From positions 1 through 31,269 of the IMG/VR virus record IMGVR_UViG_3300009158_002133: a DNA stretch of 31,269 nucleotides; one strand, 5' to 3'. The stretch comes from a virus. Shown in pieces: positions 229-30,901 of this stretch (the first letter of the stretch is position 1; every line of letters begins with the position of its first letter). The notes under the pieces were generated by a model, which did no database searches, had not been told where the DNA came from, and saw only the letters and a list, made by a program, of their open reading frames with translations. The translations under genes and the position numbers were made by a program.

Positions 229-254
229 AAAAAAGGGGAGCCTTGCGGCTCCCC
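229..254 (-). terminator. Intrinsic terminator, cassette copy 1
   Basis: On the minus strand this is an 8-bp stem GGGGAGCC/GGCTCCCC with a 4-nt loop and a following run of six T. It lies 14 nt beyond the stop of the 164-aa gene. It is one of eight near-identical copies, each at the 3' end of one leftward gene. Confidence 0.88.
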
Positions 255-268
255 TGATGGTTGGACTG

Positions 269-763
269 TTACGACGCTCCGTCGCCGTTGAAGCACCCCT
301 TGCGTCCGTCAGGTCGCAGTCCCCGTCCCTGCAATTCTGACAGGTAGGCTTTGGCAAGCCGCTCATTCCTGTCGCCCTTCTTGTGTCCGCCGCAAGAGGT
401 AGTCGCCCTAGCGTTCGCATACCAGTCTTGCAGTGTGTCCTCCGTCGCCGTCATCGTTTTCTCCGTCAGCCAGATTGTGCAATCCAAGTGGTCTAACTGT
501 CCTTTCAGGTGACGGCGATGGTCACGACAGGAGTAGAAGTAATCCTCCCACACTTCCCGATTCGGATTGTCCATCAGGATACCGCCGTCGGTCTTCGTTA
601 GGATTGCTTCCGCAGTCCGTTCCACTTCCTGCTGAGCGAACCAGTTAGCCGTGACTGCGGCGTGAAGATTGCGGAGCATCGTGATTTGATTGAGCGACGG
701 ATTCGCCGTCGGCGATTGAGCGGGGGAGACGCTCACTTTTTTCCCCTTGGGTTTCGGTTCCAC
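269..763 (-). CDS. Accessory protein with V-E-P type N-terminus
   Basis: A 164-aa protein of unrecognised family. The start is GTG at 763, chosen because the first codons (V-E-P, then a V-S-V-S-P segment near residues 10-14) align with the starts of four other genes in this region, also read from GTG. The rest is soluble, rich in charged residues, with a Trp-containing helical middle and a basic, Gly-rich C-terminal quarter. No signal peptide or membrane segment is seen. It is the last gene of the leftward accessory array and has its own terminator 14 nt downstream. There is no Shine-Dalgarno sequence. Terminator-to-start distance upstream is about 63 nt, longer than for its neighbours. Probably a phage early or moron-type gene; function unknown. 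Confidence 0.7.
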   Translation of the reverse strand: MEPKPKGKKVSVSPAQSPTANPSLNQITMLRNLHAAVTANWFAQQEVERTAEAILTKTDGGILMDNPNREVWEDYFYSCRDHRRHLKGQLDHLDCTIWLTEKTMTATEDTLQDWYANARATTSCGGHKKGDRNERLAKAYLSELQGRGLRPDGRKGCFNGDGAS

Positions 764-826
764 GACTCGATTGAATCATCCCAGCGGCGACGACGCAAGA
801 ATACTTGTCAGGATTTTCTAACGACG

Positions 827-853
827 AAAAAGGGGGAGCCTTTCGGCTCCCCC
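827..853 (-). terminator. Intrinsic terminator, cassette copy 2
   Basis: Minus-strand stem of 9 bp (GGGGGAGCC/GGCTCCCCC), loop GAAA, then five T. It begins 7 nt after the stop codon of the 223-aa gene. Confidence 0.88.
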
Positions 854-860
854 AGTTAGG

Positions 861-1532
861 TCATTCGTAATGCGGGACGGTGAGCGTCGCCGACTGGAAG
901 GGGAAGCGTTCCAGCATCGCTTCCCCGTCAGCCTCAGGACGGGCAGAGGAGAATCCCCTAACCTCCCTAGTGTCGCCGTCGCCCCAGTCCACCCTGTCGC
1001 CTTGGAAGGTTAGTCCGAATTTCTCCCGTCCGTATTCCTTCGCCGCTTCCAGAGTCTTAGCCTCAGCATTTTCGGGAGTCGTAAACTCTCCGTAGATGTT
1101 CACGGCGTTGAAGTAACTCACAGGGAAGCAAGCGAGACACAAGCGGCGATGGTAGTAACAACCTCCCTCCGCAGGACTGTATTCGACTAACTCCGTTCGG
1201 TAAAAGTTAACGAAGTTGACCTCGCTGTCCCCCTTGCGAATCCTGAGCGGCATCAGGAATTCGTCGCGGTAACATTCCGCCGTCGCAGTCCAATCCGCCA
1301 GAGCCTGTTCCTCTTCGTCGTGCTGAAACTTCCTCACTTCCTCTTCGTGCTTATCCAGAGCATCCAGAGCATCCTGCAAACTCGCTAGGGTATTATTTTG
1401 CTTCACCCGTTCGGAACGGAACCATTTGAAAAACAATTCCTCCCGTTCGCCTTTCGTTTTTTGCGAAGCCGTCGCAAGCGGCAGGAAGGGGGAGGCTTCC
1501 TGATTGTTATCCCCTGATGTGTTAGGTTCCAC
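861..1532 (-). CDS. Accessory protein, VEPNTSGDN N-terminus
   Basis: A 223-aa protein of unknown family, start GTG at 1532. Its first nine residues VEPNTSGDN match those of the 151-aa and 107-aa genes nearby almost exactly, at the DNA level too, which fixes the start although no Shine-Dalgarno sequence is present. After the shared leader comes a charged, helical segment (about residues 30-85, likely coiled coil, K/E/D-rich), then a globular part with clustered aromatics and Cys (residues about 115-140, including G-C-Y-Y and C-L-A-C). No membrane segment. It has its own terminator downstream and only 38 nt from the upstream gene's terminator to its start, so any private promoter would give an almost leaderless mRNA. 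Function unknown. Confidence 0.72.
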   Translation of the reverse strand: MEPNTSGDNNQEASPFLPLATASQKTKGEREELFFKWFRSERVKQNNTLASLQDALDALDKHEEEVRKFQHDEEEQALADWTATAECYRDEFLMPLRIRKGDSEVNFVNFYRTELVEYSPAEGGCYYHRRLCLACFPVSYFNAVNIYGEFTTPENAEAKTLEAAKEYGREKFGLTFQGDRVDWGDGDTREVRGFSSARPEADGEAMLERFPFQSATLTVPHYE

Positions 1533-1570
1533 GCCGTTAGTGTAAGTGTCAGGCGGATACGGAGCAACGC

Positions 1571-1597
1571 AAAAAAAGGGGAGCCTTTCGGCTCCCC
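1571..1597 (-). terminator. Intrinsic terminator, cassette copy 3
   Basis: Minus-strand stem GGGGAGCC/GGCTCCCC, loop GAAA, seven T. It lies 8 nt past the stop of the 133-aa gene and 38 nt before the GTG of the next gene. Confidence 0.88.
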
Positions 1598-1605
1598 TAG
1601 GTTTG

Positions 1606-2007
1606 CTATTCGTCTCCCCAGTCCGAACCTTCGTCTTCCTCTTCGTCTTCGTCGTCGCAGTCAGTATCGTGCGGACAGATTTCCGTCAGGATACCTAGCA
1701 GGATGTAGTAACCATCCGCACCGTTATCCGCTTCCTCTTTCAGAGCGGCGGCGAAGTCAGGAGCGTCCTTACACTCGCCCGACATTGCTACCGAAGCCAG
1801 ACTGCGAATCCGATTCGCAACGGCGGAGTCCTTTCGTTTCCAGCCGTTCGTCGCCGTAGCGAAGAGGCTGAAAACATTCCCGTCGATGCGAGTCCACTCG
1901 ACTTGCGGGAAGTCGGACGGTTTCACTTTCGTTTCTCCCAGCAGGAATTTAACGCCCTGCTGATGGGCGGAGAGTTTAAGACTCTCAGTCTTTTTTGGTT
2001 GGGTCAT
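1606..2007 (-). CDS. Accessory protein with acidic C-terminal tail
   Basis: A 133-aa protein starting at ATG 2007. It does not share the V-E-P or MCPMPT starts of its neighbours. The N-terminal 100 residues look like one mixed alpha/beta domain; the last 20 residues are nearly all Asp/Glu, a tail often seen in proteins that mimic nucleic acid or bind basic partners. Upstream the spacer (2008-2072) is longer and AT-rich, so a promoter has room here. A terminator copy follows 8 nt after the stop. The acidic tail would suit a host-takeover or anti-defence DNA-mimic role, but that is speculation; no family is recognised. Confidence 0.7.
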   Translation of the reverse strand: MTQPKKTESLKLSAHQQGVKFLLGETKVKPSDFPQVEWTRIDGNVFSLFATATNGWKRKDSAVANRIRSLASVAMSGECKDAPDFAAALKEEADNGADGYYILLGILTEICPHDTDCDDEDEEEDEGSDWGDE

Positions 2008-2072
2008 TTTGTGCCTAGCGGCAAGCAGAGCGTAGTAAGTAAAATTCTATTACGCAAATATAAAACAGGCAC

Positions 2073-2100
2073 AAAAAAGGGGGAGCCTTTCGGCTCCCCC
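2073..2100 (-). terminator. Intrinsic terminator, cassette copy 4
   Basis: Minus-strand 9-bp stem GGGGGAGCC/GGCTCCCCC, loop GAAA, six T, starting 8 nt after the stop of the 87-aa gene. Confidence 0.88.
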
Positions 2101-2108
2101 AGTTAGGG

Positions 2109-2372
2109 TTACTTTTTCTCCCAGCCTTGCTGCGTTGCGATATGCTCCCCCAGCATATCTGGTTCAGTTTCCTTCGGCACGCTATTAGCGGCGAAGGTAT
2201 GCTGACGCTGAACCTTGCGGCGATGGTCAGGGAAATAGTCGCTCAGGCTTTTCAGAGCCTTAGCCTTTCCGAAGGCTCCCTTGGTTTTGGATTTCGCAAC
2301 GGACGGTTGCGGCGTTTGAGCGGCAGAGTCGCTCAGGTTTTCTGCGGGGGGGGTTTCAGGTTCCACGCTCAT
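2109..2372 (-). CDS. Accessory small basic protein, V-E-P leader
   Basis: An 87-aa protein read from ATG 2372; the GTG at 2366 is the alternative and lines up exactly with the V-E-P starts of the sister genes. A longer open frame to 2480 reads through the neighbouring terminator (encoding G-A-A-R-L-P-F-F) and is not credible. The first 30 residues are Pro/Ser/Ala-rich and look disordered; the middle is Lys-rich (residues about 28-42) and could bind nucleic acid. The 5' flank is nearly the same as that of the 223-aa gene (both contain GCTCCGTATCCG then CTTACA), so the two genes seem to share a duplicated upstream segment. Function unknown. Confidence 0.62.
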   Translation of the reverse strand: MSVEPETPPAENLSDSAAQTPQPSVAKSKTKGAFGKAKALKSLSDYFPDHRRKVQRQHTFAANSVPKETEPDMLGEHIATQQGWEKK

Positions 2373-2405
2373 AATGTAAGCGGCGGACGGATACGGAGCA
2401 AACAC

Positions 2406-2431
2406 AAAAAAGGGGAGCCTTGCGGCTCCCC
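2406..2431 (-). terminator. Intrinsic terminator, cassette copy 5
   Basis: Minus-strand stem GGGGAGCC/GGCTCCCC, loop GCAA, six T, 6 nt after the stop of the 151-aa gene. Confidence 0.88.
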
Positions 2432-2437
2432 AGTTTG

Positions 2438-2893
2438 TTAGTCGGCGTCGTCGTATTGTGCTGACTGCATTTCCTCCCAATCCTCACGGTGCTTCTCTAC
2501 GGCGGCGGCGAAGGTAAACCCTTCAACCTTCTCTTCAACCTTCCGCACAAACCCGCAGATGCTAGCGGCTGGGGTGCAGTCGTCGTCGCCCTTGTCTATG
2601 CAAACGCTGTCTCCGTTCGGTAAGTGTCGGGTGTCAGACCAGTGACTAGTTTCCTGACCGAAGGCAGGATGTTCCGCCGTCTTGCCTTTCAGTGCGTCCA
2701 CAAACTCCTTATGCCGTTCCAGAGCCTCCCGCAAATTCGCTTCGGCTTCCTGAACATTAGCGGCAAGCAATTCACGGGTGTTAGTCAGCAGTCCTGCTAC
2801 CAAAACCGTTACTTCATTTACCGAAACAATCTTCGGCAGAGTGAAAGCGGGGGAGACGCTTTCGGAATTATCCCCAGTCGTGTTAGGTTCCAC
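2438..2893 (-). CDS. Accessory protein, VEPNTTGDN N-terminus
   Basis: A 151-aa protein of unknown family. GTG 2893 is chosen because the first residues VEPNTTGDN and the following S-V-S-P and T-L-P segments match the sister genes; the longer frame to 2998 again translates a terminator hairpin and is rejected. After the leader comes a helical, Leu/Ala/Glu-rich region (residues about 25-70, likely coiled coil), a short Cys/Asp-rich segment around residues 95-112, and a charged C-terminal helix ending in D-D-A-D. No membrane segment or signal peptide. It sits between two terminator copies, so it is probably its own transcription unit. Confidence 0.7.
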   Translation of the reverse strand: MEPNTTGDNSESVSPAFTLPKIVSVNEVTVLVAGLLTNTRELLAANVQEAEANLREALERHKEFVDALKGKTAEHPAFGQETSHWSDTRHLPNGDSVCIDKGDDDCTPAASICGFVRKVEEKVEGFTFAAAVEKHREDWEEMQSAQYDDAD

Positions 2894-2932
2894 ATCCACA
2901 AACTGAGAGCCGTAAGTAAAAAACACAAACAC

Positions 2933-2958
2933 AAAAAAGGGGAGCCTTGCGGCTCCCC
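2933..2958 (-). terminator. Intrinsic terminator, cassette copy 6
   Basis: Minus-strand stem GGGGAGCC/GGCTCCCC, loop GCAA, six T, 9 nt after the stop of the 155-aa gene. Confidence 0.88.
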
Positions 2959-2967
2959 TTGCGTTTG

Positions 2968-3435
2968 TTATCCGAATGTAATTTCCCCTAAGAAACAATA
3001 TTGAAAGAAAGCGTCATCGCTTACGCCGTCCGCTTCCGTCGGATGTTCCTGAGTCACTAACATTTCTGCATACATCTTGCGGAGCCAATCAGGTTGCTTT
3101 TCGTCGCTCACAAACTTCACCAGTTTATTGTGAAGCCAAACCGCCGTGACTTCCTGATACTTGCTCAGGTCTTCCTCTCCCTCAAAATCAACGCACTTGA
3201 TTTCAATCATCAGGGAAGCGTAAGGAATACCGTCCTTCTCTCCCGCTTTGTTATAGTCCTTATAGCCTTTGCTCTCAGGGTTTGCAGGGAAACCCCAAGA
3301 TGAGCCTCCCAGTCCGCCTTCGACGGCTCCGCTCACGATATACCAGAGATTTTTTGCGTAATCTTCGGACATCGTTTTGTTAGTTAGGAACGCTTTCATT
3401 TTTTCTGACTTTGTTATGGTGGGCATAGGACACAT
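2968..3435 (-). CDS. Accessory protein with MCPMPT start
   Basis: A 155-aa protein of unknown family. The start could be ATG 3435 (MCPMPT) or ATG 3426 (MPT). The 402-aa gene has the same MCPMPT(I/L)xK beginning, and a third gene at 6631 keeps only the second ATG in the context TCCTATGCC, so the second may be the real one. The frame upstream to 3462 has no support. The protein looks globular, with a Gly-rich segment around residues 37-52 (G-G-L-G-G-S-S-W-G) and an acidic C-terminal third. No membrane segments. A TTGTGT hexamer lies exactly 32 nt before the second ATG. It has its own terminator downstream. Confidence 0.68.
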   Translation of the reverse strand: MCPMPTITKSEKMKAFLTNKTMSEDYAKNLWYIVSGAVEGGLGGSSWGFPANPESKGYKDYNKAGEKDGIPYASLMIEIKCVDFEGEEDLSKYQEVTAVWLHNKLVKFVSDEKQPDWLRKMYAEMLVTQEHPTEADGVSDDAFFQYCFLGEITFG

Positions 3436-3464
3436 AAACAAACCCAAGGCGGCGGGTAACACAA
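3424..3464 (-). promoter_or_regulatory. Candidate start/promoter element (TTGTGT-N32-ATG)
   Basis: Minus strand: TTGTGT at 3464-3459, 32 nt, then TCCTATGCC with the ATG at 3426. Spacing and 3' end match the elements upstream of the 402-aa gene and the 62-aa gene. The same site contains GTAACACAA on the plus strand (3456-3464). No convincing -10 box is visible, so this is a candidate only. Confidence 0.3.
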
Positions 3465-3468
3465 TAAC

Positions 3469-3494
3469 AAAAAAGGGGAGCCTTTCGGCTCCCC
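3469..3494 (-). terminator. Intrinsic terminator, cassette copy 7
   Basis: Minus-strand stem GGGGAGCC/GGCTCCCC, loop GAAA, six T, 7 nt after the stop of the 107-aa gene. Confidence 0.88.
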
Positions 3495-3501
3495 AGTTAG
3501 G

Positions 3502-3825
3502 TCACTTGATTTGGGACAAACTCTCGCCCTTAATCCTCAGGATTGCTTCCCGAAGATGTGCGACGGCGGCGGCTTCGCTCCCGTGACGCTCTGACTGTAT
3601 CGCCGCAACCGCTAGGGTATATTGCTCCTTAGCAAACTCAATCTTCTGGTTCAATTCCTGATGCTGATAGTAATGGTAATTACGATTGCCTCCCATTCGG
3701 GTCAGGTGAGCCAAAAACTTCTTTTCGAGTTTCTGAGTTTTGGATGTATCCGCAAGAGACGCTTGCGGGACGGTGACGCTAGGGGAGGTAGCGTCGGGAA
3801 TTTCCCCTGATGTGTTAGGTTCCAC
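3502..3825 (-). CDS. Accessory protein, VEPNTSGE N-terminus
   Basis: A 107-aa protein of unknown family, GTG start at 3825. The first eight residues VEPNTSGE and the later S-P-S-V-T-V-P segment match the sister genes; its first 22 bases are the same as those of the 223-aa gene. The body (residues 30-107) is helical, rich in Lys, Glu, Ala and Gln, and probably a coiled coil, with an N-R-N-Y-H-Y-Y-Q-H-Q aromatic/His patch near residue 50. No membrane segment. It has its own downstream terminator, and the upstream spacer after the neighbouring terminator is about 39 nt. The longer frame starting at 3864 begins at the terminator's edge and is unlikely. Confidence 0.7.
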   Translation of the reverse strand: MEPNTSGEIPDATSPSVTVPQASLADTSKTQKLEKKFLAHLTRMGGNRNYHYYQHQELNQKIEFAKEQYTLAVAAIQSERHGSEAAAVAHLREAILRIKGESLSQIK

Positions 3826-3864
3826 AAATCCAATGTGCCTACCAGTAACACAAAAGCAAGGCAC

Positions 3865-3891
3865 AAAAAAAGGGGAGCCTTTCGGCTCCCC
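3865..3891 (-). terminator. Intrinsic terminator, cassette copy 8
   Basis: Minus-strand stem GGGGAGCC/GGCTCCCC, loop GAAA, seven T, 6 nt after the stop of the 402-aa gene. On the plus strand four T follow the hairpin, so this copy could act weakly in both directions. Confidence 0.88.
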
Positions 3892-14532: not shown

Positions 14533-14834
14533 TTAGTTTTTTGTATAAATTTGTTTCTAATCCAGTTGAACAACTCTGGAGCAATAGAACCAGAAATACT
14601 GCACAAGACGCTTTTGTAGAAAGGGTCTATATGTGCGTTGTACAAAGTGAAATAACAAATGACCCCAACTATAGCCCCAGCAATAACCATCCTTATCCAC
14701 TTAAATGTGTAATACCTTTCATCGGTCAGGATGAGTCTAGCCAGCATCCCAATAGCCCCCAGTACGGCAAACAGCCAACCAGTCTTTTTGAATTCGTCGG
14801 CTATGGCATCCAATGATTGTGGGTCTTGGTTCAT
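14529..14834 (-). CDS. Holin-like membrane protein
   Basis: A 101-aa protein with three predicted membrane segments (about 19-36, 46-65 and 72-92) joined by short loops, a charged N-terminus and a basic C-terminal tail (R-N-K-F-I-Q-K-T-K). The pattern G-W-L-F-A-V-L-G-A-I-G-M-L-A-R and A-P-E-L-F-N-W-I resembles phage holins of the LydA/lambda-type three-TM class, which permeabilise the inner membrane at lysis. It is coupled by ATGA both to the 2424-aa gene before it and to the spanin-like gene after it. No endolysin gene is recognised next to it. Confidence 0.72.
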   Translation of the reverse strand: MNQDPQSLDAIADEFKKTGWLFAVLGAIGMLARLILTDERYYTFKWIRMVIAGAIVGVICYFTLYNAHIDPFYKSVLCSISGSIAPELFNWIRNKFIQKTK

Positions 14835-17800
14835 CGCTTAGGCTCCATTCTTCTGATTCTTTTCTTAGCATCTTCCTCGTCCTTATATACACCAAGCAAA
14901 TGTTTCTGAGGGTCATATACCCTATATGTACCATTGAGTCTCATAATTACATAGTTAAGAGCATTGGTGAGAACTGAACCATTACCATATGTTTCCGTTT
15001 TAAAACTTCTCCAAACCCTGATATCAGCCTGTGTGAAATCACGGGCTGGCATAGGCTTAGGCGGAACAGTTGTAGTAGGTGTAGGTGTTTTCTTAGGCGT
15101 AGGAACAGGTACACGCTTAGGTGTAGGTATAGGGGTTCCGTCTGTATCTATTGTAGTGGTTGTAGTAGTACCATCTGTATCTACAATTGTAGTTGTTGTA
15201 TTTCCATCTGTATCTACCGTTGTAGTTGTTGTATTTCCATCTGTATCTACTGTTGTAGTTGTCTTATCTGGTTCTATTACTGGGTCTACGGTAGTGGTTG
15301 TTTTTTCAGGGTCACCAATCATATTCCATTTCCCTGTATCTGGGTCACGGGTTCCTACTCTTATAGTTTTTCTACTTTCCTTTTGTCTGTCATAAAACTT
15401 TTGGTATTTATTTACATTCTCTCTAACTGCTGTAAGAGAAATTCCCATTGCTTCAGATTCTTCTATTGTTTTTTGATTAATCCTCCAACCAGCAGGGTCT
15501 TTCATTGCTTCATCTGAACCCTCAAATGGAGGCTGGTCTTCTCCTACTCTTTTCCATATTTCAAAATCACTTAGACCTTCAAGTGCATTAGGCTTTCCGT
15601 TTGCTTCAGCCCATCTTGTCATATTTGTACGCCAGTCATTAACAAACGCTTTTTCGTATGGGCTTAAAAATCCTTCAGGACGATTAGGAAGTTCAGACTT
15701 CTTTTTACCTCTTGCGTTTCCAACATCTATTTCAGAAATATCTTTACTTGCATCTCTTCCAGAATCAATTACACGAATCATTTCTTCAAGCACTTGATGG
15801 CTAAATGTACCTTCATATCCAATAAATGTACTTAATGCTTCAGACATTTGATTGTGCAAACTTGCTACATTCTTTTTAAATCCAACATTAACATCAGGCG
15901 TATCAAGTGATGTTAAGAGACTAGGCTTAACAGGCATATGGTTCCATCTTGCTAGGTGAGCAGGGTCATTAAATAGTGTAATCAAAAATTCTTGAGTAGA
16001 GCCAAGCCTATAAACACTTCTTTCTTTCCACGACCTAGGAAGTTCGTGTTCTCTATCTCCTTTAAATCCTTTTATTTCCCAAGGATTTACAACCCTATAA
16101 CCCTTTTTTAACTGTCCTCTGGTAGATTTTAGTTTTCCTGCATCTGTATAAACTTGAGCATTTAATTTATATCCTTTACTTTCCCAAAGAGTTTCAACTG
16201 TTCCTTTTGGATTAAGAATATATGTATTTTCACAAGCATATTTTTGCAACTCAAGCACTCTTGCAAATGCAACAACTTCAGGTGGAAGAATTATTCCATT
16301 CTTAATTTGTTCTTTTGTTTTTGTTAAAAACTTTTCTACATTGTATTTCCAAGCATCTCCTTCCATTGATGTAGGACTATCTGTTTCTATAAGACCTTTA
16401 AGTTCTGGTGCGGCATCACCAGCCTCTCTGCTTATTCTTCCAAAAATACTATGAGCAAGTTCTTCTAATGCAGTTCCTTCAAATGATTGACCATTTAAAG
16501 CCTGAACTCTTCTTGCTCTTTCATTGCCAGAATGGTTTCCAACATTACTTGCAAAATCACTTGCTGCCCAAGTTTTGTCTATTAACTCAGCAAGGTTTAA
16601 AAATAATTGTTGATGAGATTTACGCTCTACTACTCTTGTAATAGGAAATCTATATTTATCTTCTTTTTTAGTTCCATCATCTGCTTCATCTTCATCCATT
16701 TTTTGACGCTCTTCTGTTGCGTCTTTTATTTTTTGTCTTGCTTTTTCTTTTTCTTTAATTGCAGTCTCAATTGTTTCTTTTAATTTAGATATTTCTTTTT
16801 TAAGTTCAGGAGTGGGTGCTCTTGCATATTGATTTTGCAAAAGTTCATACCTTTCACGAAGCGTAGCCTCTCTTTGTGTTCGTGCTTCATACTGTCTTGT
16901 CATTGTAACTATTGTTTCTCCTCCAGTCCAAGAACCAGTATTTAACAATTCAACCTTTGTGTTTAATTGATTCTTGTCAGACAAAGACAATAACATCTGA
17001 GCAAACTTACTATGAATATCAACAGGCATATTTGGTGCTCTGTGTTTGCCTTGTTCTTTTACAAAATTAAGAACATCTCCTACTGTAACTACAGATTTAG
17101 CCTGTTGATGGTAATCTAAATACTGCCAAAGATTGTGATATTGAGGATTTGGTGCATTTGAAAAGTCGTGATGACCAGCAATGTCACCTGTTTTTGCAAC
17201 ATAAGTTACAAGTGATTCAAAATGAGTAGGGTCAAACGGAAGTTCTCTACTAGTATCTATTGCAAATTTTTCGTGATAACCAATAGAGTCATTGTAAATA
17301 GGTTCTTCACGGGGTACTTCATATCTTGATGTGCCTAGTTCACCAGCACCTTCGTTGGGGGATAGGTTAACAGTTCTATTTGTGCGACCTTCACCACGGG
17401 GCAGAGGCTCATACGCCGCACCAGCCTGAGCCTTCTCACGGGTGCTACCAATCATACGCTGTTGCTTATTAACCGTCTCAACAGGAACAATAAAGGAAAC
17501 ATCGAGATTTCCGCCATCCATCTGGTTGATGAAGATTACGCCGTCGTGTCCTTGCTCAATGGCTTCACCAAGAATCTTTTCAGTTCGTTTCATCATTGGT
17601 GTTTGTTGACCATCAACAACCAACGGATTATTAAACCTAATTGCCGATTTTCCAATATTAGGAGAATCAGATTCTGGTCTTCTAAAATCTGAACTTATTT
17701 CATAACCCAATTTCTTTGGGTCGTATCCTTGGTATTCTGGGTTTAAAACAGTTGTATCCGAAGAAGCAAAATAAGCACCACGCCGTTCCCCATTAGACAA

Positions 17801-20800
17801 AGGAAGGTCTTTTACTCTTAGTTCGTGTTTATATTTTTTGTCTTTAAGGAATCCTTGAGATGTATATGTTCCGTGAACGCCTACAACAACAACAGGTTCT
17901 CCAGTTCTAAATTGCTTAGAATACACAGCGTGTTGATAATACTCACGCATAGGAATATTGTCTGCTAAGTATCCAGAAAAATCGTTGTATTCAGGATTGG
18001 CTTTCTTGACCCACTTCTTTGCTTCTTGAATTTTCTTTGCAAAATCTGTAGCCCTAGAACCTGTAAACTCACTATGAAGTTGTTTTTGGGATGCTGGCTT
18101 GGCTAGGTCTTCCTCAAGTCTTTTTGCCTCAATATATTCACTTAGAGGAAGATGTTCTTTAAGTCTTCTATCTGGCAATTCGCTGTACAAACCTTCACGC
18201 TTAGGGTCTGCTTTTTCAAAGTTAGCCTTTGCTTTCTCGTTTAACTCTTTAAGTCTAATTCTTTTAGTCTGTCTATCAAGACCACCAAACATATCCTTAG
18301 ACATTTGTTCAAGCATCATTAAGGCTGTTTCTTGATTTATGTTACCTTCTCTAAATTTATTTATAAAGTCGGTATATCCTTCATCGGCAGTCTGGGCGAC
18401 AAGTTTTCTGTCTCCAACAAACTCTTGCATTTCACGGGTATTAAATAGGTTTCCAATGCGTCTGGCTTCGGCGGCTTCTCTTGCCCCAAGAACAGGAACT
18501 TCCCCTTCTCCTTCGTTGGGGGAGCGGTTGATGACGCTGTTGTCCGTCATATTGTCTTTGAGCGTAACCGAAGAAGGATTCTTAGCGGCATACTTCCGAG
18601 CACCTTCAGCCGCCTTATTAGCATCTTCAAATGTACCTATACGCTTACCTTGTTCATCATAGGCATCAGTCTTTCCATCTTGTTTTTGAATAAGTTTAAA
18701 TCCAGACGGATGCTTAAATATTGTTCCGTTAGGTGTAATTTCACTGTCCATTTCCCTAGGCGACCAGTTACGAACAAGGTCACGGTAGGCATTTTCAAAT
18801 ACAAACGGGACGCTTTGATTGCGAACACGAAGATTAGTCATCCTGTTAAGGCTGAATGAGAAAACGGATGAAAGAGTATTTCTATTTATTTCAGCGTTAG
18901 GAGAATTAATAAATGTGTCAGCCTCACCCTTAGCAAGACCAAGCACTTGGTGCATAGCATTTCTACGCTCAGAGCCTTTGTCATCAGTCCAAAGTTCAGC
19001 AGAAGGCTTTCTATCAGGATGGTCGTGTGCTCTAGAAGCATTTTCAAGATACCTATAGAAGTCTGCCATAAACTCTGTATGGTTTCCATTCCATAGCGAT
19101 TGAATGTGAGGGTCAGACCAAGTGTTATTAGCACGAATTTCAATCACCTTATAATCAAGCATATTGCCTTTGAACTGGAAATCTCCATTCTTACTAATGC
19201 TTATATCAAGTCCATAGACAACTCCAGTTCTAGACTTAAACGGCACTCTGCTACCATACATTCTGCTAGGGTTATTAACATCACCAATACGCTCACCAGA
19301 AGCAGCAATGCCTCCAAAGTCTACTATGTTTCCTCCAGCCTTTCCAGAAGTTATAGATTGGAATAGGCTAATTTTGTTAGCCATAGCCCTAGTCATATGT
19401 CCAGAGTTAACAATGTTATCTAGTATCTCAGGGCTAAGATTACCCCTAATGTTACCTTCTCCATCTATAAAGAATGTACGCTCAGCCTCAGGTATACCCA
19501 TCAGCAACTTGTAAACAGCCTTACCTTTAATTCTGTTTTCTTTTTTAATTTGAGCCTCTGTGTTGTGTTTATAGTTACCAGAAATGTCTCTAGAAAATAC
19601 GCCGTCAAGACCTTCTCCTTCAATAAACCTAACCTGATTTTCTTTATTAAGGTGAGAGATGTCAAATTGACCAGTTTCATTAACTGTCTTTTCAATCCTA
19701 AGCATATCTCTAAAGAACATATCCATAGCAGGATTAACTACACGCTGAGTTTTACCTGTTATTCTTCCAAACATATCACGCTTAGCAGGGGCAAATACCT
19801 CATCAATAGGCACTAGTTTTTCGTTACCATTTTCATCAATAAATGTGCGTCCAAAATCAAACTCAGGTGCTGTCATTCCCATCCTGCTTCTCCAGTAGTT
19901 TCTAAATTGCAAACTTGCGTTCTCTAAAACACCACGAATTCCTGGCAAATCACCACCGTGATATAGCCAGTCAACAGGTTTATCCATCACAAGATGAGAG
20001 AAATAGTAAGCACCAAATTCTTCACTAAGGTGTTCAAGCAAAGGACGACCACCAAGAGAAGGGTCAGATACCATAGCACCACTTTCTTCGTATTCCTTTT
20101 CAGCAAGTTCAAGACGGCTTAGAGCATCTGCCTTTTCTGCTACATCCTTAAACTCAGCATCAATGTATCTTCTGAACATTTGCTTAACTTCCTTAGGGTC
20201 AACTACACCTTTATCAAGTATAGCACCATCATTGCCTCTTGTGCCAATAACTTTTTCTTTAACTGCCTGAGAGTAGTAATCCTTCATCGCACTTGTGCGT
20301 AGGATAGAGTGAAAAAGTTCGTGTCCAAGTGTAGCCCTAGGAGCGGCATCAGCATTAATATAGATTTTAACCATACCATTTGCCTTGTTCTCAACTACAT
20401 AACCATTTTGTTGTTCAAAAGATTTGAGGCTTAGAGGTTGGTCGCCATCTTTAAGGAACTTCTTACCATCATATGTTTCAGGGTCTAAATTGTTTTCGTG
20501 AAGGAAATCAGCATACTGCTTTTCAGAGAATATTTCAAGGTGTGTGTTAGGATGGATTACATCCTTTGAGGCAAGTATAGCATCAAAGTTAAATCCTCTA
20601 GACTTAGCCCAAGCCTGAGCCTTATCCCACATTTGAGCCTGTTCAGGATGGATATCCCTAAGACCTTCAATAACAAGTTTAGCCTGAATAGAAGTTCTTT
20701 GTGCTGTAGTTCTGCCAGTAACATCAGCAAGCAACTTTCCTCCAGTAGCACCTATGCCACCTAGCATAATGCCAGCACCAGCACCACTAGCCGCTCCCTC

Positions 20801-22105
20801 AGAGCCTCCACTCCAATATCCTAGAGCCGCACCAAACTGAGCACCGTGAGCGGCTCCTCCAGCAACATTAGATACATATCCAATAAGAGGGTCAAACCCA
20901 TCAATAATTTTAAGAAGAGCCTTAGAATGTCCAGATAGTTGAATACCATCTTTTACCGCATCATCCATTGCTTGTTTAGCATAAGAAGCAATTCCTCGCT
21001 CACCTTTTTGAATCTGATTTCCAATTACTGACAATGCTTCACCTACACCAGCGGCGGCAGTTCCGTAGACATAAGCACCAGAAGCATCAGTAAGAAGAGG
21101 TATGCTATGACCAAAGTATCCAGAGCCAAGGCTTCCTATTCCACTCATTTTCATACCAGTTCTAAAAGCATCAGAAGATACACCAGTAGCGGCAACAAAT
21201 GCTTTTTCACCTGTTGCTATACCATAATCAAGCGTTGCTCTTGTTGCTTTTCCTACAAATTCAATAGGAGCACCAACTGCATATTTAATTGCTCCACCAA
21301 GAACCATACTCTTTAAAGCGGATGTTCTAGCACCAAGTGTAATTCCTCGCTCAGCCATACCAAGCATTGAAGCAGAAAGACCAAATGCTTTACCAAAAGG
21401 AACAAACATTAAAGGGTCAGCAACTAAAGCAGACGCTTGAACAAAATCATTATTTAAATGGTTTTTATCAAATATTTGTGTTGTTCTTCCAGCCGCTAGG
21501 TCATTAGAGTCTCTTAGAAACTTTCTAGCCTCAAGAAATACTTTATATGACTCAGTGCTGTCTTCTTTTCTGCCATTAAGAAGATTGAAAAACTTAGCCT
21601 GAGGTGATGTAGAGTCAGCAGATTCAGCCGCTATTCCGTAATAGCCTCTGACAAGTTGAGAAGCACCCTCAAGCACACTTGCAGGAATCTTGGAAATATT
21701 TTCAGCCGAAGGGTCTTCTCCAATAGAAGCAAATGGTTTATGTATCAGTGTCTCAAAAATATGACCAGCCGCACCAGATAAAGCGGCAAGATGGTCAGAG
21801 TCTTTCTTTCTGTAATAGTCATTTAACTTAATCCATTCAGACTCAGTAGGGTCTTCTGGAGTTATATTTTGACCTTTTTTACGAGCCTCTTCATAGGCTT
21901 GGTCTTTTTCTGCAAGGTCGTGATGAATGTCTTCACCAGTTTTAGGTGCAGTAATTAAAGCATAAGCCTCATCTCTTTCATCTGCTGGCAAAGAATTAAG
22001 ATAAGAATCTATCTGTTTGTCTCCAGTATATTCTTTTCCGTTAGTAGTCCGTCCATTAACAGACGGAGTTACAATCATATCTGGATTTGCAAAAATATCA
22101 GCCAT
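14831..22105 (-). CDS. Giant polyvalent virion protein (HExxH peptidase, ART-like)
   Basis: A 2424-aa protein, ATG 22105, probably packaged and injected with DNA. Visible modules: Gly/Ala-rich hydrophobic stretch about 330-460 (possible membrane insertion); Zn metallopeptidase with L-G-H-E-L-F-H at 593-599 and a likely third ligand E695/E696 in S-E-E-F-G-A-Y-Y; a region at about 1405-1540 with V-H-G-T (H1411), G-A-Y-F-A, N-P-L-V-V and G-H-D-G-V-I-F, the signature of ADP-ribosyltransferases in polyvalent proteins; a coiled coil about 1749-1809; a degenerate E-E-L-A-H near 1881-1885; and an 11-residue Thr-rich tandem repeat about 2279-2323 before a Pro/Thr linker. Such modules are known from phage and conjugative polyvalent proteins. 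Linker repeats S-P-N-E-G near 1195 and 1582 bracket the ART part. Catalytic activity is inferred. Confidence 0.72.
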   Translation of the reverse strand: MADIFANPDMIVTPSVNGRTTNGKEYTGDKQIDSYLNSLPADERDEAYALITAPKTGEDIHHDLAEKDQAYEEARKKGQNITPEDPTESEWIKLNDYYRKKDSDHLAALSGAAGHIFETLIHKPFASIGEDPSAENISKIPASVLEGASQLVRGYYGIAAESADSTSPQAKFFNLLNGRKEDSTESYKVFLEARKFLRDSNDLAAGRTTQIFDKNHLNNDFVQASALVADPLMFVPFGKAFGLSASMLGMAERGITLGARTSALKSMVLGGAIKYAVGAPIEFVGKATRATLDYGIATGEKAFVAATGVSSDAFRTGMKMSGIGSLGSGYFGHSIPLLTDASGAYVYGTAAAGVGEALSVIGNQIQKGERGIASYAKQAMDDAVKDGIQLSGHSKALLKIIDGFDPLIGYVSNVAGGAAHGAQFGAALGYWSGGSEGAASGAGAGIMLGGIGATGGKLLADVTGRTTAQRTSIQAKLVIEGLRDIHPEQAQMWDKAQAWAKSRGFNFDAILASKDVIHPNTHLEIFSEKQYADFLHENNLDPETYDGKKFLKDGDQPLSLKSFEQQNGYVVENKANGMVKIYINADAAPRATLGHELFHSILRTSAMKDYYSQAVKEKVIGTRGNDGAILDKGVVDPKEVKQMFRRYIDAEFKDVAEKADALSRLELAEKEYEESGAMVSDPSLGGRPLLEHLSEEFGAYYFSHLVMDKPVDWLYHGGDLPGIRGVLENASLQFRNYWRSRMGMTAPEFDFGRTFIDENGNEKLVPIDEVFAPAKRDMFGRITGKTQRVVNPAMDMFFRDMLRIEKTVNETGQFDISHLNKENQVRFIEGEGLDGVFSRDISGNYKHNTEAQIKKENRIKGKAVYKLLMGIPEAERTFFIDGEGNIRGNLSPEILDNIVNSGHMTRAMANKISLFQSITSGKAGGNIVDFGGIAASGERIGDVNNPSRMYGSRVPFKSRTGVVYGLDISISKNGDFQFKGNMLDYKVIEIRANNTWSDPHIQSLWNGNHTEFMADFYRYLENASRAHDHPDRKPSAELWTDDKGSERRNAMHQVLGLAKGEADTFINSPNAEINRNTLSSVFSFSLNRMTNLRVRNQSVPFVFENAYRDLVRNWSPREMDSEITPNGTIFKHPSGFKLIQKQDGKTDAYDEQGKRIGTFEDANKAAEGARKYAAKNPSSVTLKDNMTDNSVINRSPNEGEGEVPVLGAREAAEARRIGNLFNTREMQEFVGDRKLVAQTADEGYTDFINKFREGNINQETALMMLEQMSKDMFGGLDRQTKRIRLKELNEKAKANFEKADPKREGLYSELPDRRLKEHLPLSEYIEAKRLEEDLAKPASQKQLHSEFTGSRATDFAKKIQEAKKWVKKANPEYNDFSGYLADNIPMREYYQHAVYSKQFRTGEPVVVVGVHGTYTSQGFLKDKKYKHELRVKDLPLSNGERRGAYFASSDTTVLNPEYQGYDPKKLGYEISSDFRRPESDSPNIGKSAIRFNNPLVVDGQQTPMMKRTEKILGEAIEQGHDGVIFINQMDGGNLDVSFIVPVETVNKQQRMIGSTREKAQAGAAYEPLPRGEGRTNRTVNLSPNEGAGELGTSRYEVPREEPIYNDSIGYHEKFAIDTSRELPFDPTHFESLVTYVAKTGDIAGHHDFSNAPNPQYHNLWQYLDYHQQAKSVVTVGDVLNFVKEQGKHRAPNMPVDIHSKFAQMLLSLSDKNQLNTKVELLNTGSWTGGETIVTMTRQYEARTQREATLRERYELLQNQYARAPTPELKKEISKLKETIETAIKEKEKARQKIKDATEERQKMDEDEADDGTKKEDKYRFPITRVVERKSHQQLFLNLAELIDKTWAASDFASNVGNHSGNERARRVQALNGQSFEGTALEELAHSIFGRISREAGDAAPELKGLIETDSPTSMEGDAWKYNVEKFLTKTKEQIKNGIILPPEVVAFARVLELQKYACENTYILNPKGTVETLWESKGYKLNAQVYTDAGKLKSTRGQLKKGYRVVNPWEIKGFKGDREHELPRSWKERSVYRLGSTQEFLITLFNDPAHLARWNHMPVKPSLLTSLDTPDVNVGFKKNVASLHNQMSEALSTFIGYEGTFSHQVLEEMIRVIDSGRDASKDISEIDVGNARGKKKSELPNRPEGFLSPYEKAFVNDWRTNMTRWAEANGKPNALEGLSDFEIWKRVGEDQPPFEGSDEAMKDPAGWRINQKTIEESEAMGISLTAVRENVNKYQKFYDRQKESRKTIRVGTRDPDTGKWNMIGDPEKTTTTVDPVIEPDKTTTTVDTDGNTTTTTVDTDGNTTTTIVDTDGTTTTTTIDTDGTPIPTPKRVPVPTPKKTPTPTTTVPPKPMPARDFTQADIRVWRSFKTETYGNGSVLTNALNYVIMRLNGTYRVYDPQKHLLGVYKDEEDAKKRIRRMEPKR
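15138..15270 (-). repeat. 33-bp tandem repeat (DTDGNTTTTTV)
   Basis: About four in-frame copies with 33-nt period (CCATCTGTATCTA starts at 15171, 15204 and 15237, with a variant at 15138). They encode D-T-D-G-N-T-T-T-T-T-V units in the giant protein, followed by a Pro/Thr-rich linker. Confidence 0.85.
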
Positions 22106-28579: not shown

Positions 28580-30901
28580 TTAGTCTTTGTTTGAGTTGGT
28601 CTTTTTTTGTTGCGTTGCGTATATGTACGCTGAGCGAATAGATGGTCGCTTTGAGTAAGAAACGAATCTTATTAAAGCATCTGAACCAGTTTTTCTGATA
28701 GGGTTAGACCTTGTGTAGTCTTCATAAGAAGAAGAGCCAAAAGAGTCAACCTTAACAACTACATCAGGATTTGATACATCTACATAGGTTTCTATCTTTT
28801 CGCCACCAGATGTAAGTAGACTTGCTTCGTATGAACTAAAGCGTTTATCGCCTATGTTCTTAAAGGAGTACTTTCGTGTCTCAAGAACGGCAAGAATGTC
28901 GTTTTTAGAGAAAGAAAGGGAGTCTAGGACTATTACATTAGCGTTAGGGATTCCAGCACTATTAAAAGAAGAAACCAATATAAGATTTCCATATTTTCCA
29001 TTTGCTATGTTTACAGCCGTATCAACTCCAATAATAGGGGTAGGTAAAATTGGGCTTCCAGTAGAGTCGCCAAACTCATCGTAATCTAGTTCTTCTGTAA
29101 GGAAAATTCCTTGATAGTTATCAATCAAGAACATACGACGCTGGTTGTCTTTTTTAACAACAATAAACTCTTTAAGTGAAACGGACTCAGCCTTTTTAAA
29201 TGTGCAATTATAACCAAGTGTATAGTTCCAAGTAGGAGACGCAGGACTTCCAGAATACGGAAGTGTTATAAAAGAACTTCTTGGAATTTTTATTATAAAA
29301 TATGTATCAGAAAATCCAAGTCCTGCTGGCTGGTCATAAATAACCTTATATGTGCCACTAGGAGGATATCCATTTCCAGTATTAACTGTTCCATTCCAAG
29401 TAGGTTCTCCAAAGGTTACATTTACATAATCTCCAACAGCAAGTCCGTGTCTAATTGCATAACTACTTTTAGTTATCATAACAGGAATATATTCACCAGA
29501 ATACATAGGGCTATTTAAACCACTTGTCCAAAGTTGCCAACTATCAGCCACAACAGGATTTTTAGTAGTTACAAGTGTAGGATATGTATCAACCGATTCC
29601 CATTGTTTTAAGATGAAGTTAAAGACCAATACAGTATTGTTGACAGTACTATCGTCAAGCGGAACGGCAAGGTAGTAACGATTATTCCAATAGGTAGCAA
29701 CAGCGTTGCTTGCGTAATTACGATTGATTCGCTGGATAACATTATCAATTGGAGCCGATATAGGGTCAGACATCGTGAGCAACTTCATAGACTCAGCAGA
29801 GGCTGGTTGAGGTTGCAGGAAGTACACACCGTTATCAGAAAGGAAGAACACGCCGCCACCAGCCTGAACTACACTCTTCTTAGCAAGACAACCGATGTCT
29901 GTAGCCAGAGTCTTTATGTATGAATTTGAACTTAGCGGAGCACTATTTACATATCTGTCATTGCCAACTGAAATGTAGTATATGCTGTTACGCATAAACA
30001 CAAGAAACTCATTGAGCGTCCAAGGGGCAACGCCTACAAGGTGGTCATTGCTTCCGTTATTAATTGAAAAAGCATCTGATATATCCCAATGTTCGTAGTC
30101 AAGATAATTGCTAACAGAAACCGTGTCGTAGTTTCTTAGTGTTTCTGTTTCAGCGTGATATGCACCAATAGCAACAAGCCTGTTGCCATAGTACATCAAT
30201 GTTGAACACTTAGGAAATTCGTGTCCAGCACCAGCACCAGCAGGAAGTGCGGTTATTGTACTGCCTAAATCCCACATTAAAGGACGCTTATCAAATCCTC
30301 TGCTAATAAAAATCTTGTCAACCGCACTGCAAACATCACAACCTTCTGGTGTGGTAATTAGTTCTGAGGCATTATAAGAACAAGATGCTCCAGTTATTAC
30401 ACCTGTAGAAGCAATTCGCTCCATTATATATGTAAATGTATTTGTTGTTTTGGATGTTATAACAAACAATCCAGAATATGCAGTAGTGCTACATTCTACA
30501 TATACGCTTGCACCAACTAAAAGTCCGTGTGTTGCTTTTGTTACGGTTACAGTTTGACTGTCAGTAGAAGTGAGAGTTGCTCCAGTTATTCTGTTAGGAA
30601 AGTAAATCTTAGCAGAAAGAGTCTCTGTCTGAGGGTTGTATGTGTACAGACCATTTGCAACAACTAGAACAATCATTTCCTGTCCACTAGGAAGGATGTA
30701 AGTTCCTGTAGAATAGATTGTTTGACCAACAATGTCTCCAATAGTCTTTCGCTCTAGACCCTTTCTGGTCTGAGCAACACCACGGTCTAGTCTAAAATTC
30801 TGAGACTTGCTAAGGATACCTTCGGGCAAAGAACTAGGATTATCACGGCTGTTAAGCCCGACAAACGCTATATCTCCATCCCTTTGGTATTCATTAGGCA
30901 T
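28580..30901 (-). CDS. Large beta-rich virion structural protein
   Basis: A 773-aa protein, ATG 30901, overlapping the upstream stop as TAATG. The first 50 residues follow a pattern common in phage structural proteins: G-L-N-S-R-D-N-P-S-S-L-P-E-G, N-F-R-L-D-R-G-V-A-Q-T-R-K-G-L. Residues about 108-178 carry the H-G-L-L-V beta domain shared with the next gene; a weaker third copy lies around residues 485-565 (R-H-G-L-A-V-G-D-Y-V). Residues 180-470 show repeated strand pairs with aromatic-Gly turns, suggesting a beta-propeller. Probably part of the tail tube, neck or tail tip. No transmembrane segment. Confidence 0.68.
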   Translation of the reverse strand: MPNEYQRDGDIAFVGLNSRDNPSSLPEGILSKSQNFRLDRGVAQTRKGLERKTIGDIVGQTIYSTGTYILPSGQEMIVLVVANGLYTYNPQTETLSAKIYFPNRITGATLTSTDSQTVTVTKATHGLLVGASVYVECSTTAYSGLFVITSKTTNTFTYIMERIASTGVITGASCSYNASELITTPEGCDVCSAVDKIFISRGFDKRPLMWDLGSTITALPAGAGAGHEFPKCSTLMYYGNRLVAIGAYHAETETLRNYDTVSVSNYLDYEHWDISDAFSINNGSNDHLVGVAPWTLNEFLVFMRNSIYYISVGNDRYVNSAPLSSNSYIKTLATDIGCLAKKSVVQAGGGVFFLSDNGVYFLQPQPASAESMKLLTMSDPISAPIDNVIQRINRNYASNAVATYWNNRYYLAVPLDDSTVNNTVLVFNFILKQWESVDTYPTLVTTKNPVVADSWQLWTSGLNSPMYSGEYIPVMITKSSYAIRHGLAVGDYVNVTFGEPTWNGTVNTGNGYPPSGTYKVIYDQPAGLGFSDTYFIIKIPRSSFITLPYSGSPASPTWNYTLGYNCTFKKAESVSLKEFIVVKKDNQRRMFLIDNYQGIFLTEELDYDEFGDSTGSPILPTPIIGVDTAVNIANGKYGNLILVSSFNSAGIPNANVIVLDSLSFSKNDILAVLETRKYSFKNIGDKRFSSYEASLLTSGGEKIETYVDVSNPDVVVKVDSFGSSSYEDYTRSNPIRKTGSDALIRFVSYSKRPSIRSAYIYATQQKKTNSNKD

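Follow-up and report, generated by a model that had tools for sequence, protein, structure and literature searches.

A folded RNA at the 5' end of the message, not a protein tag, appears to form the shared start of unrelated genes in a phage gene array

Introduction

What makes otherwise unrelated genes of one phage begin with the same few codons? The question is raised by IMG/VR record IMGVR_UViG_3300009158_002133, a tailed-phage genome or genome fragment that was analysed over its complete length of 31,269 bases (hereafter, the window) and that carries, besides structural genes, those for exonuclease VIII, a replication protein O-like protein, a DnaC-like protein, and an Erf-type annealing protein. 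Near the left end of the window, on the minus strand, lies an array of genes, five of which begin with GTG-GAA-CC. A first-pass annotation noticed these starts and offered two explanations: a conserved N-terminal peptide acting as a localisation, packaging, or protease signal, an idea that leader substitutions ignoring the reading frame would contradict, or a start-site element in the DNA that doubles as recombination homology. Here, we present a computational analysis according to which the shared gene start (the leader) is not a protein tag; it seems to be an RNA structure at the 5' end of the mRNA, with a pseudoknot and then a hairpin.

Results

Nucleotide and peptide conservation in the leader

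The sequence GTGGAACC is present at all five gene starts, at minus-strand positions 763, 1532, 2366, 2893, and 3825, after which the genes are named here. They occupy positions 269..763 (164 amino acids, aa), 861..1532 (223 aa), 2109..2366 (85 aa), 2438..2893 (151 aa), and 3502..3825 (107 aa from the GTG), all on the minus strand. The window contains six copies of GTGGAACC against 0.7 expected, a number reached in 0 of 100 shuffles; the sixth copy is on the opposite strand, outside the five-gene set. For gene 2366, whose start had been left between 2366 and 2372, the GTG at 2366 is preferred, since the predicted -10 element, the distance to the terminator, and the hairpin register all fit it. 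The similarity of the predicted products of genes 1532, 2893, and 3825 in the segment VEPN(T)(S/T)G(D/E), the later S-P segment, and the lack of relationship beyond residue 25 (no mutual similarity detectable by blastp) were all as first described. The extent of the leader was not: the shared segment does not end at residue 22, since it runs to approximately nucleotide (nt) 75. Likewise, the span 269-3825 holds the five leader genes and also two genes without the leader (1606-2007 and 2968-3435).

Were the leader a peptide signal, its amino acids should be conserved above synonymous sites. In four pairs of orthologues from the window and a closely related contig, G001 (L004), this was not the case: leader codons carried 6 synonymous-only and 10 replacement changes per 100 codons, and substitutions thus ignore the reading frame, while the bodies of the same genes carried 88 synonymous and 32 replacement changes per 479 codons. 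In addition, codon choice in the leader tracks base pairing, and homologues of the gene bodies occur both with and without the leader. The proposed peptide signal thus fails the condition set for it and is not supported. Judged by the pattern of substitutions, what is conserved in the leader is a nucleotide structure, not a peptide. RNA structure, promoters, and terminators did not figure in the first-pass annotation.

A pseudoknot and a second hairpin

The predicted fold consists of a pseudoknot at nt 19-51 of each predicted message and a second hairpin, S3, at approximately nt 53-76. The pseudoknot is built on a hairpin, S2 (nt 31-51), with a 7-nt stem region and a 7-8-nt loop, the last five bases of which pair with five bases upstream of the hairpin, nt 19-23 (GGGGA type), to form S1. 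The distance of S2 from the start codon is constant in nearly all copies, the copy of gene 763 being 3 nt nearer. The S2 stems differ in sequence (CAGGAAG/CTTCCTG, GAAAGCG/CGCTTTC, GACGCTA/TAGCGTC, TGAGCG/CGCTCA, GATTCTG/CAGAATC, GATTCGA/TCGAATC, GACGAAG/CTTCGTC, and others), and S1 covaries, with the combinations GGGGA/UCCCC, GCAGA/UCUGC, GGGAG/CUCCC, GGAAG/CUUCC, GAGGG/CCCUC, and GGGGG/CCCCC, of which GAGGG/CCCUC, GGGAG/CUCCC, and GGAAG/CUUCC are contributed by the related contigs G004 and G006.

All five leaders of the window are on the minus strand. The leader of gene 3825 (3750..3825), which is the best match of covariance model R1, has its GTG at 3825-3823, S1 strand GGGGA at 3807-3803, S2 GACGCTA-CCTCCCC-TAGCGTC at 3795-3775 (TCCCC of the loop pairs with S1), and S3 CCGCAAG-CGTCT-CTTGCGG at 3768-3750. 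In the leader of gene 2893 (2821..2893; GTG at 2893), GGGGA at 2875-2871 is followed by S2 GAAAGCG-TCTCCCC-CGCTTTC at 2863-2843 and S3 CCGAA-GATTGT-TTCGG at 2836-2821. The leader of gene 2366 (2295..2366; GTG at 2366) replaces GGGGA with UCCCC by a covarying S1, GCAGA (nt 22-26; 2345-2341) with loop UCUGC; its S2, TGAGCG-ACTCTGC-CGCTCA, lies within 2336-2316 and its S3, CGCAAC-CGTCC-GTTGCG, at 2311-2295. The corresponding elements of gene 1532 (1461..1532; GTG at 1532) are GGGGA at 1514-1510, S2 CAGGAAG-CCTCCCC-CTTCCTG at 1502-1482, and S3 TTGCGA-CGGCT-TCGCAA at 1477-1461, and those of gene 763 (695..763; GTG at 763) are GGGGA at 746-742, S2 TGAGCG-TCTCCCC-CGCTCA within 736-716, and S3 CGACGG-CGAAT-CCGTCG at 711-695. 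A further candidate pairing, of the start codon with nt 11-18, was dropped, as it was found in 14 copies against 12.4 expected and 622 of 2000 shuffles scored as high.

Statistical support for the fold

Pairing was counted on hand-registered sequences of 24 elements from four phage lineages, which were located partly by a GGGGA/CUCCCC pattern and otherwise by their position after a terminator. Out of 288 designated stem cells (168 in S2 and 120 in S1), 278 were paired, 160 of them in S2 and 118 in S1. When the 3' arms of S2 were permuted among elements, the observed pairing was never reached in 20,000 trials. Synonymous recoding of the same peptides gave a mean of 185 paired cells and a maximum of 216. 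S3 stems of at least 5 bp, which begin 5-7 nt past S2, were present in 22 of the 24 copies, compared to a mean of 2.8 and a maximum of 9 in 2000 synonymous recodings.

An alignment of 17 sequences in register had 99.5% of its cells paired, as opposed to 51-59% when the 3' partners were slid by one to three columns. Both sides had changed in 10 of its 12 pairs, and covariation was 0.70, compared to 0.205 (standard deviation 0.028) after shuffling, with 0 of 500 shuffles reaching the observed value. Matches to the covariance model at E<0.01 were confined to the arrays, and a strict pseudoknot test was passed by 1 of 743 open reading frame (ORF) starts outside them. Compensatory pairing is thus kept beyond chance and beyond coding constraint, as is the case for structured cis-regulatory RNAs.

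Promoters, terminators, and predicted leaderless starts

Lined up on the start codon, the 24 leader genes all have TTG near -35 and a pyrimidine at -1; A occupies -11 in 19 of them and T occupies -7 in 23, and the base at +1 is a purine (G or A). A at -11 and T at -7 occur jointly in 19 of 24 leader genes versus 2 of 21 other genes of the window. The predicted minus-strand promoters of the window are at 3832..3862 for gene 3825 (-35 TTGCTT, and -10 CACATT ending 6 nt before the GTG), 2900..2930 for gene 2893 (TTGTGT, CAGTTT), 2373..2403 for gene 2366 (TTGCTC, 17 nt, TACATT), 1539..1569 for gene 1532 (TTGCTC, 17 nt, TACACT), and 770..800 for gene 763 (TTGCGT, 17 nt, TTCAAT). A generic σ70 scan with a strict consensus did not report these promoters; the support comes from the aligned, position-specific pattern. 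Since the -10 hexamer ends six bases before the start codon, transcripts are predicted to begin on the start codon itself, i.e., to be leaderless mRNAs, and promoter position points to such a start in 19 of the 24 leader genes. No Shine-Dalgarno site precedes the leader genes, as is also true of most other genes of the window. A+C makes up 88.5% of the bases from nt 5 to S1 (nt 5-18); the peptide would lead one to expect 75.8%, and gene bodies have 50%.

One intrinsic terminator, GGGGAGCC-GAAA/GCAA-GGCTCCCC-T(n), occurs in eight near-identical minus-strand copies, one after each of eight genes: at 235..254 after gene 763, 833..852 after gene 1532, 1578..1597 after gene 2007, 2080..2099 after gene 2366, 2412..2431 after gene 2893, 2939..2958 after gene 3435, 3475..3494 after gene 3825, and, ahead of the first leader unit, 3872..3891 after the 402-aa gene 5106. 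In most cases, a gene starts approximately 44 nt past the preceding T-tract. As near-identical terminators stand between the genes, each gene is isolated between two of them, and a leader unit reads, in silico, as σ70-like promoter, ORF, and intrinsic terminator.

Two departures from this layout were seen in relatives. An extra 76-aa unit of G001 (34792-35123; L073) has a promoter nearly identical to that of the next unit and a predicted 29-nt A/C-rich leader before an ATG, with no pseudoknot. In contig G002 (L063-L064; oriented minus-strand starts at 30004, 30493, and 31153), units start with ATGAC and the -10 element ends 9 nt upstream (2-3-nt leader); their hairpins are divergent and the pairings of loop with upstream bases are weaker (ACTG/CAGT, GGTG/CACC, and GCG/CGC). 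Inverted repeats GTGCCT...AGGCAC also span the terminator-to-start regions of genes 2007 and 3825 (2007-2077 and 3830-3870, minus strand); the repeat of gene 3825 contains TTGTGTTAC, and G001 is similar.

Related phages and modularity of the units

A set of 2.9 million viral contigs, searched by pattern and by protein, yielded six further contigs with the same layout, G001 to G006, of which G003 and G006 are nearly identical to each other, as are G004 and G005; with the window and its close relative G001 counted as one, there are four lineages in all. A pattern scan for more contigs with the element returned only those already known, and ten other relatives (eight reached by way of the tail protein and two by way of the gene 2007 protein) had no such array in the available sequence. 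In the matching arrays of these related uncultured phages, the element precedes most genes, and each contig has one block of strong terminators, seven or eight in most, which are alike within one phage and different between phages.

Leaders and bodies appear in different combinations. The G001 homologue of gene 2366 has an upstream region 93.5% identical to that of gene 2893 of the window and a body 90.7% identical to gene 2366; the joint lies exactly at GTGGAACC, and gene 2893 is missing from G001. The suggestion of a start-site element that doubles as recombination homology was, therefore, right in outline. Across 21,170 aligned positions, G004 and G005 have nine differences, eight of them in the leader and early body of a single unit near a contig end; six of the differences are in stems, and all six keep or improve pairing. 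Homologues of gene 1532 are found in G001, G002, G004, and G006 and share the C-terminus PHYE.

Gene 2007 (1606..2007, minus strand; 133 aa) is an array member with an ATG start, a divergent short N-terminus, and a weak variant hairpin (GAGAG-TCTTAAA-CTCTC). In the window, G001, and G002, its homologues start with ATG and have divergent hairpins at best; in G004 and G006, they carry a full leader. Gene 3435 (2968..3435, minus strand) is an array member that starts with MCPMPT; its homologues have no leader in the window, G001, and G002, and again a full leader in G004 and G006. In two further contigs, L095 and L096, a gene 2007 homologue is part of an apparently ordinary operon, with neither terminator array nor leader, and provides a useful outgroup. 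The MCPMPT start, ATGTGTCCTATGCCCAC, is common to minus-strand genes 3435 and 5106, whose bodies are unrelated and which have no hairpin; G002 has a related start, ATGTCTTATGCCC, making ATGTGTCCTATGCCCAC a second shared-start family in the same region.

Proteins and surroundings of the array

Searches against Pfam and PHROGs assigned no function to any of the five leader proteins (that of gene 3825 matched no family above curated cut-offs), and the neighbouring 402-aa product of gene 5106 matches a PHROG of unknown function. PADLOC found no defence match among the leader proteins and one weak BrxB match, to the 402-aa protein only. A structure model of the gene 2007 protein (pLDDT 78), in which residues 1-8 are predicted to be disordered, had no relative in the PDB; its family has a strongly acidic C-terminal tail (DEDEEEDEGSDWGDE and similar). 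Among isolate phages, no relative of the gene 1532 and gene 2007 proteins was found and block DNA gave only stretches of approximately 40 bp, and the tail protein had no relative in 84,980 genomes.

The array block is 53% GC, compared to 44% for the window. Positions 1-230 of the window, at the contig end, contain GC-rich, G-skewed repeats (CTCAGG/GGCTCAGGACGG), and repeats of the same kind are present at the end of G001. Positions 14831-22105, almost one quarter of the record, encode a 2424-aa protein without a PHROG match that is probably a virion-associated giant protein.

Discussion

Role of the element

We estimate at roughly 60% the probability that the leaderless one-gene mRNAs of the array begin with a cis-acting RNA structure, the leader, that acts in translation start. 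A role at this step is favoured because the A/C-rich strip goes beyond what the peptide demands and because the pseudoknot would lie beside the edge of the ribosome: mRNA would enter a ribosome holding the start codon at approximately +15 to +18, and the pseudoknot begins at nt 19. In E. coli, leaderless translation is enhanced by CA repeats that follow the start codon, and GUG is a poor leaderless start (PMC9031893). Sequence comparison supports the fold itself, its conservation at the nucleotide level, the fixed distance from promoter to start, and the insulation of the units. The fold probably controls how ribosomes start on these messages.

In the scheme that we favour, each unit would be ordered as promoter, GTG at or beside +1, A/C-rich nt 5-18, pseudoknot at nt 19-51, second hairpin, body, and terminator, with the A/C-rich stretch and the pseudoknot just beyond the initiating ribosome as the putative working parts. 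A 70S ribosome would load on the 5'-terminal GUG, the A/C-rich stretch would keep the loading site open, and the pseudoknot would steady or gate the first step, setting the same level of output for every unit. The layout would make sense if leaderless initiation requires a free 5' end: every gene would then depend on a promoter of its own, and the terminators would insulate it from transcripts arriving from upstream. The short stretch of homology in the start element may also let units swap bodies and promoters. More tentatively, and at somewhat less than even odds, the element may represent a new class of structured RNA taking the place of the 5' untranslated region (UTR), in which a pseudoknot in coding sequence, after a 5'-terminal start codon, is a portable start module to which phages join any promoter and any body.

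How ribosomes choose leaderless messages and how these are regulated is an open question on which this family of elements bears; two dozen naturally occurring variants of a leaderless start with one defined fold also offer ready-made test constructs. More generally, the array shows how phages could build cassettes of accessory genes with uniform expression, and that an RNA structure can pass for a conserved "peptide".

A number of points weigh against our interpretation. G-U pairs fill 2 of the 288 cells, which is low for RNA and keeps a DNA-level role of the inverted repeats alive as a rival. The gene 763 copy of G001 (G001_763) retains three of five S1 pairs only, and array genes 3435 and 2007 of the window have no element or a weak variant of it. 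Minimum free energy folding, which ignores pseudoknots, was only modestly better than shuffles for some copies (z from -0.9 to -3.4). Because descent and duplication link the elements, the counts are not of independent events; S1 pairing is biased among the copies found by the GGGGA/CUCCCC pattern; and in alignment A8 one unpaired loop base was taken out of rows with 8-nt loops for register. Finally, structures around the start codon are reported to inhibit leaderless translation, according to the excerpted text of a review (PMC9031893), and the element could, therefore, restrain translation rather than help it.

Alternative explanations

The main rival, which we regard as unlikely, is that a phage or host protein, or a small molecule, binds the structure and switches translation of the whole gene set, as in the T4 RegA regulon except that the site would be a pseudoknot. 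The recurrence of one fold on many different genes of an array has the look of a regulon, and common unpaired positions (GUGGAAC at nt 1-7 in most copies, and the C/U-rich 5' side of the loop) with fixed spacing would suit a binder. However, no candidate binder was identified, and the conserved unpaired letters are also explained by the start codon, the A/C-rich stretch, and S1 pairing.

It is less probable still that the structure mainly protects leaderless mRNA from RNases that depend on the 5' end, with no direct effect on initiation. A leaderless mRNA cannot carry a hairpin in its 5' UTR, and the element is the first structure possible after the start codon; yet this explanation accounts neither for selection on the A/C-rich nt 5-18 beyond the peptide nor for the choice of a pseudoknot over a simple hairpin. 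We consider very unlikely an antitermination signal that acts on RNA polymerase, like HK022 put, and lets it read through downstream terminators. Size, hairpin number, and position after the promoter are as in putL (PMC9378689), and a terminator follows every gene, but read-through would bury the next leaderless starts, which have no Shine-Dalgarno site, and so gain nothing, and the paper on the put structure mentions no pseudoknot (PMC9378689).

We give little credence to inverted repeats acting as DNA, as a recombination or protein-binding site for shuffling of cassettes with their coding incidental. The near absence of G-U pairs, the exact joint between G001 and the window at GTGGAACC, and the concentration of eight of nine differences between the 99.96%-identical G004 and G005 in one leader region would fit. 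On the other hand, the stems have no common sequence for a protein to read, the position is tied to the start codon and to one strand, the upstream partner of the pseudoknot has no known role in double-stranded DNA, short homology alone accounts for the joint, and the G004/G005 differences are those near the contig end. A conserved N-terminal peptide signal on different proteins, for which the similar VEPNTSGDN...SP of several genes speaks, is left with a negligible chance by the predominance of replacement changes in leaders and its reversal in bodies, by codon choice set by pairing, by homologous bodies without the peptide, and by G002, where leader peptides differ and a hairpin is at a similar place.

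Comparison with known systems

No Rfam 15 family matches the element at or above the gathering threshold, and no system that combines a pseudoknot in coding sequence with leaderless starts was found in the literature available as open-licence full texts. Leaderless bacterial mRNAs, as presented in the excerpted review, resemble the array in having a start codon at the 5' end (predicted here), A/C-rich sequence after it, and no Shine-Dalgarno site (PMC9031893). The excerpts contain no covarying pseudoknot after the start codon, whereas the array has GUG with structure immediately downstream, and they describe the features that aid recognition of leaderless messages as poorly known (PMC9031893).

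In cluster K mycobacteriophages, the SAS/ESAS elements are likewise repeated at the starts of many unrelated phage genes; half have inverted repeats, and a role in translation is suspected (PMC3203893). SAS, however, has a fixed sequence of 13 bp and sits at the translation initiation site, ahead of the start codon, with ESAS just upstream of it, while the array element is within coding sequence and defined by structure (PMC3203893). The SAS sequence, GGGATAGGAGCCC, has three matches with 3 mismatches in the window, fewer than expected by chance and none in the array. HK022 put RNA, at approximately 70 nt, also has two hairpins after a promoter, in its case an early one; it acts on RNA polymerase from two sites per genome, unlike the pseudoknot of the array, which is present in one copy per gene inside leaderless ORFs (PMC9378689).

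The units also resemble morons in having their own promoter and terminator (in silico here) and in coming and going between relatives: gene 2893 is absent from G001, the extra 76-aa unit is present there, and base composition is deviant. Morons are usually single insertions, while here a tandem array carries one common RNA element. In T4, the gene 32 pseudoknot is at the 5' end of a phage mRNA and controls its translation, but it lies in the 5' leader of a single autoregulated gene; the pseudoknots of the array lie in the coding sequence of many genes.

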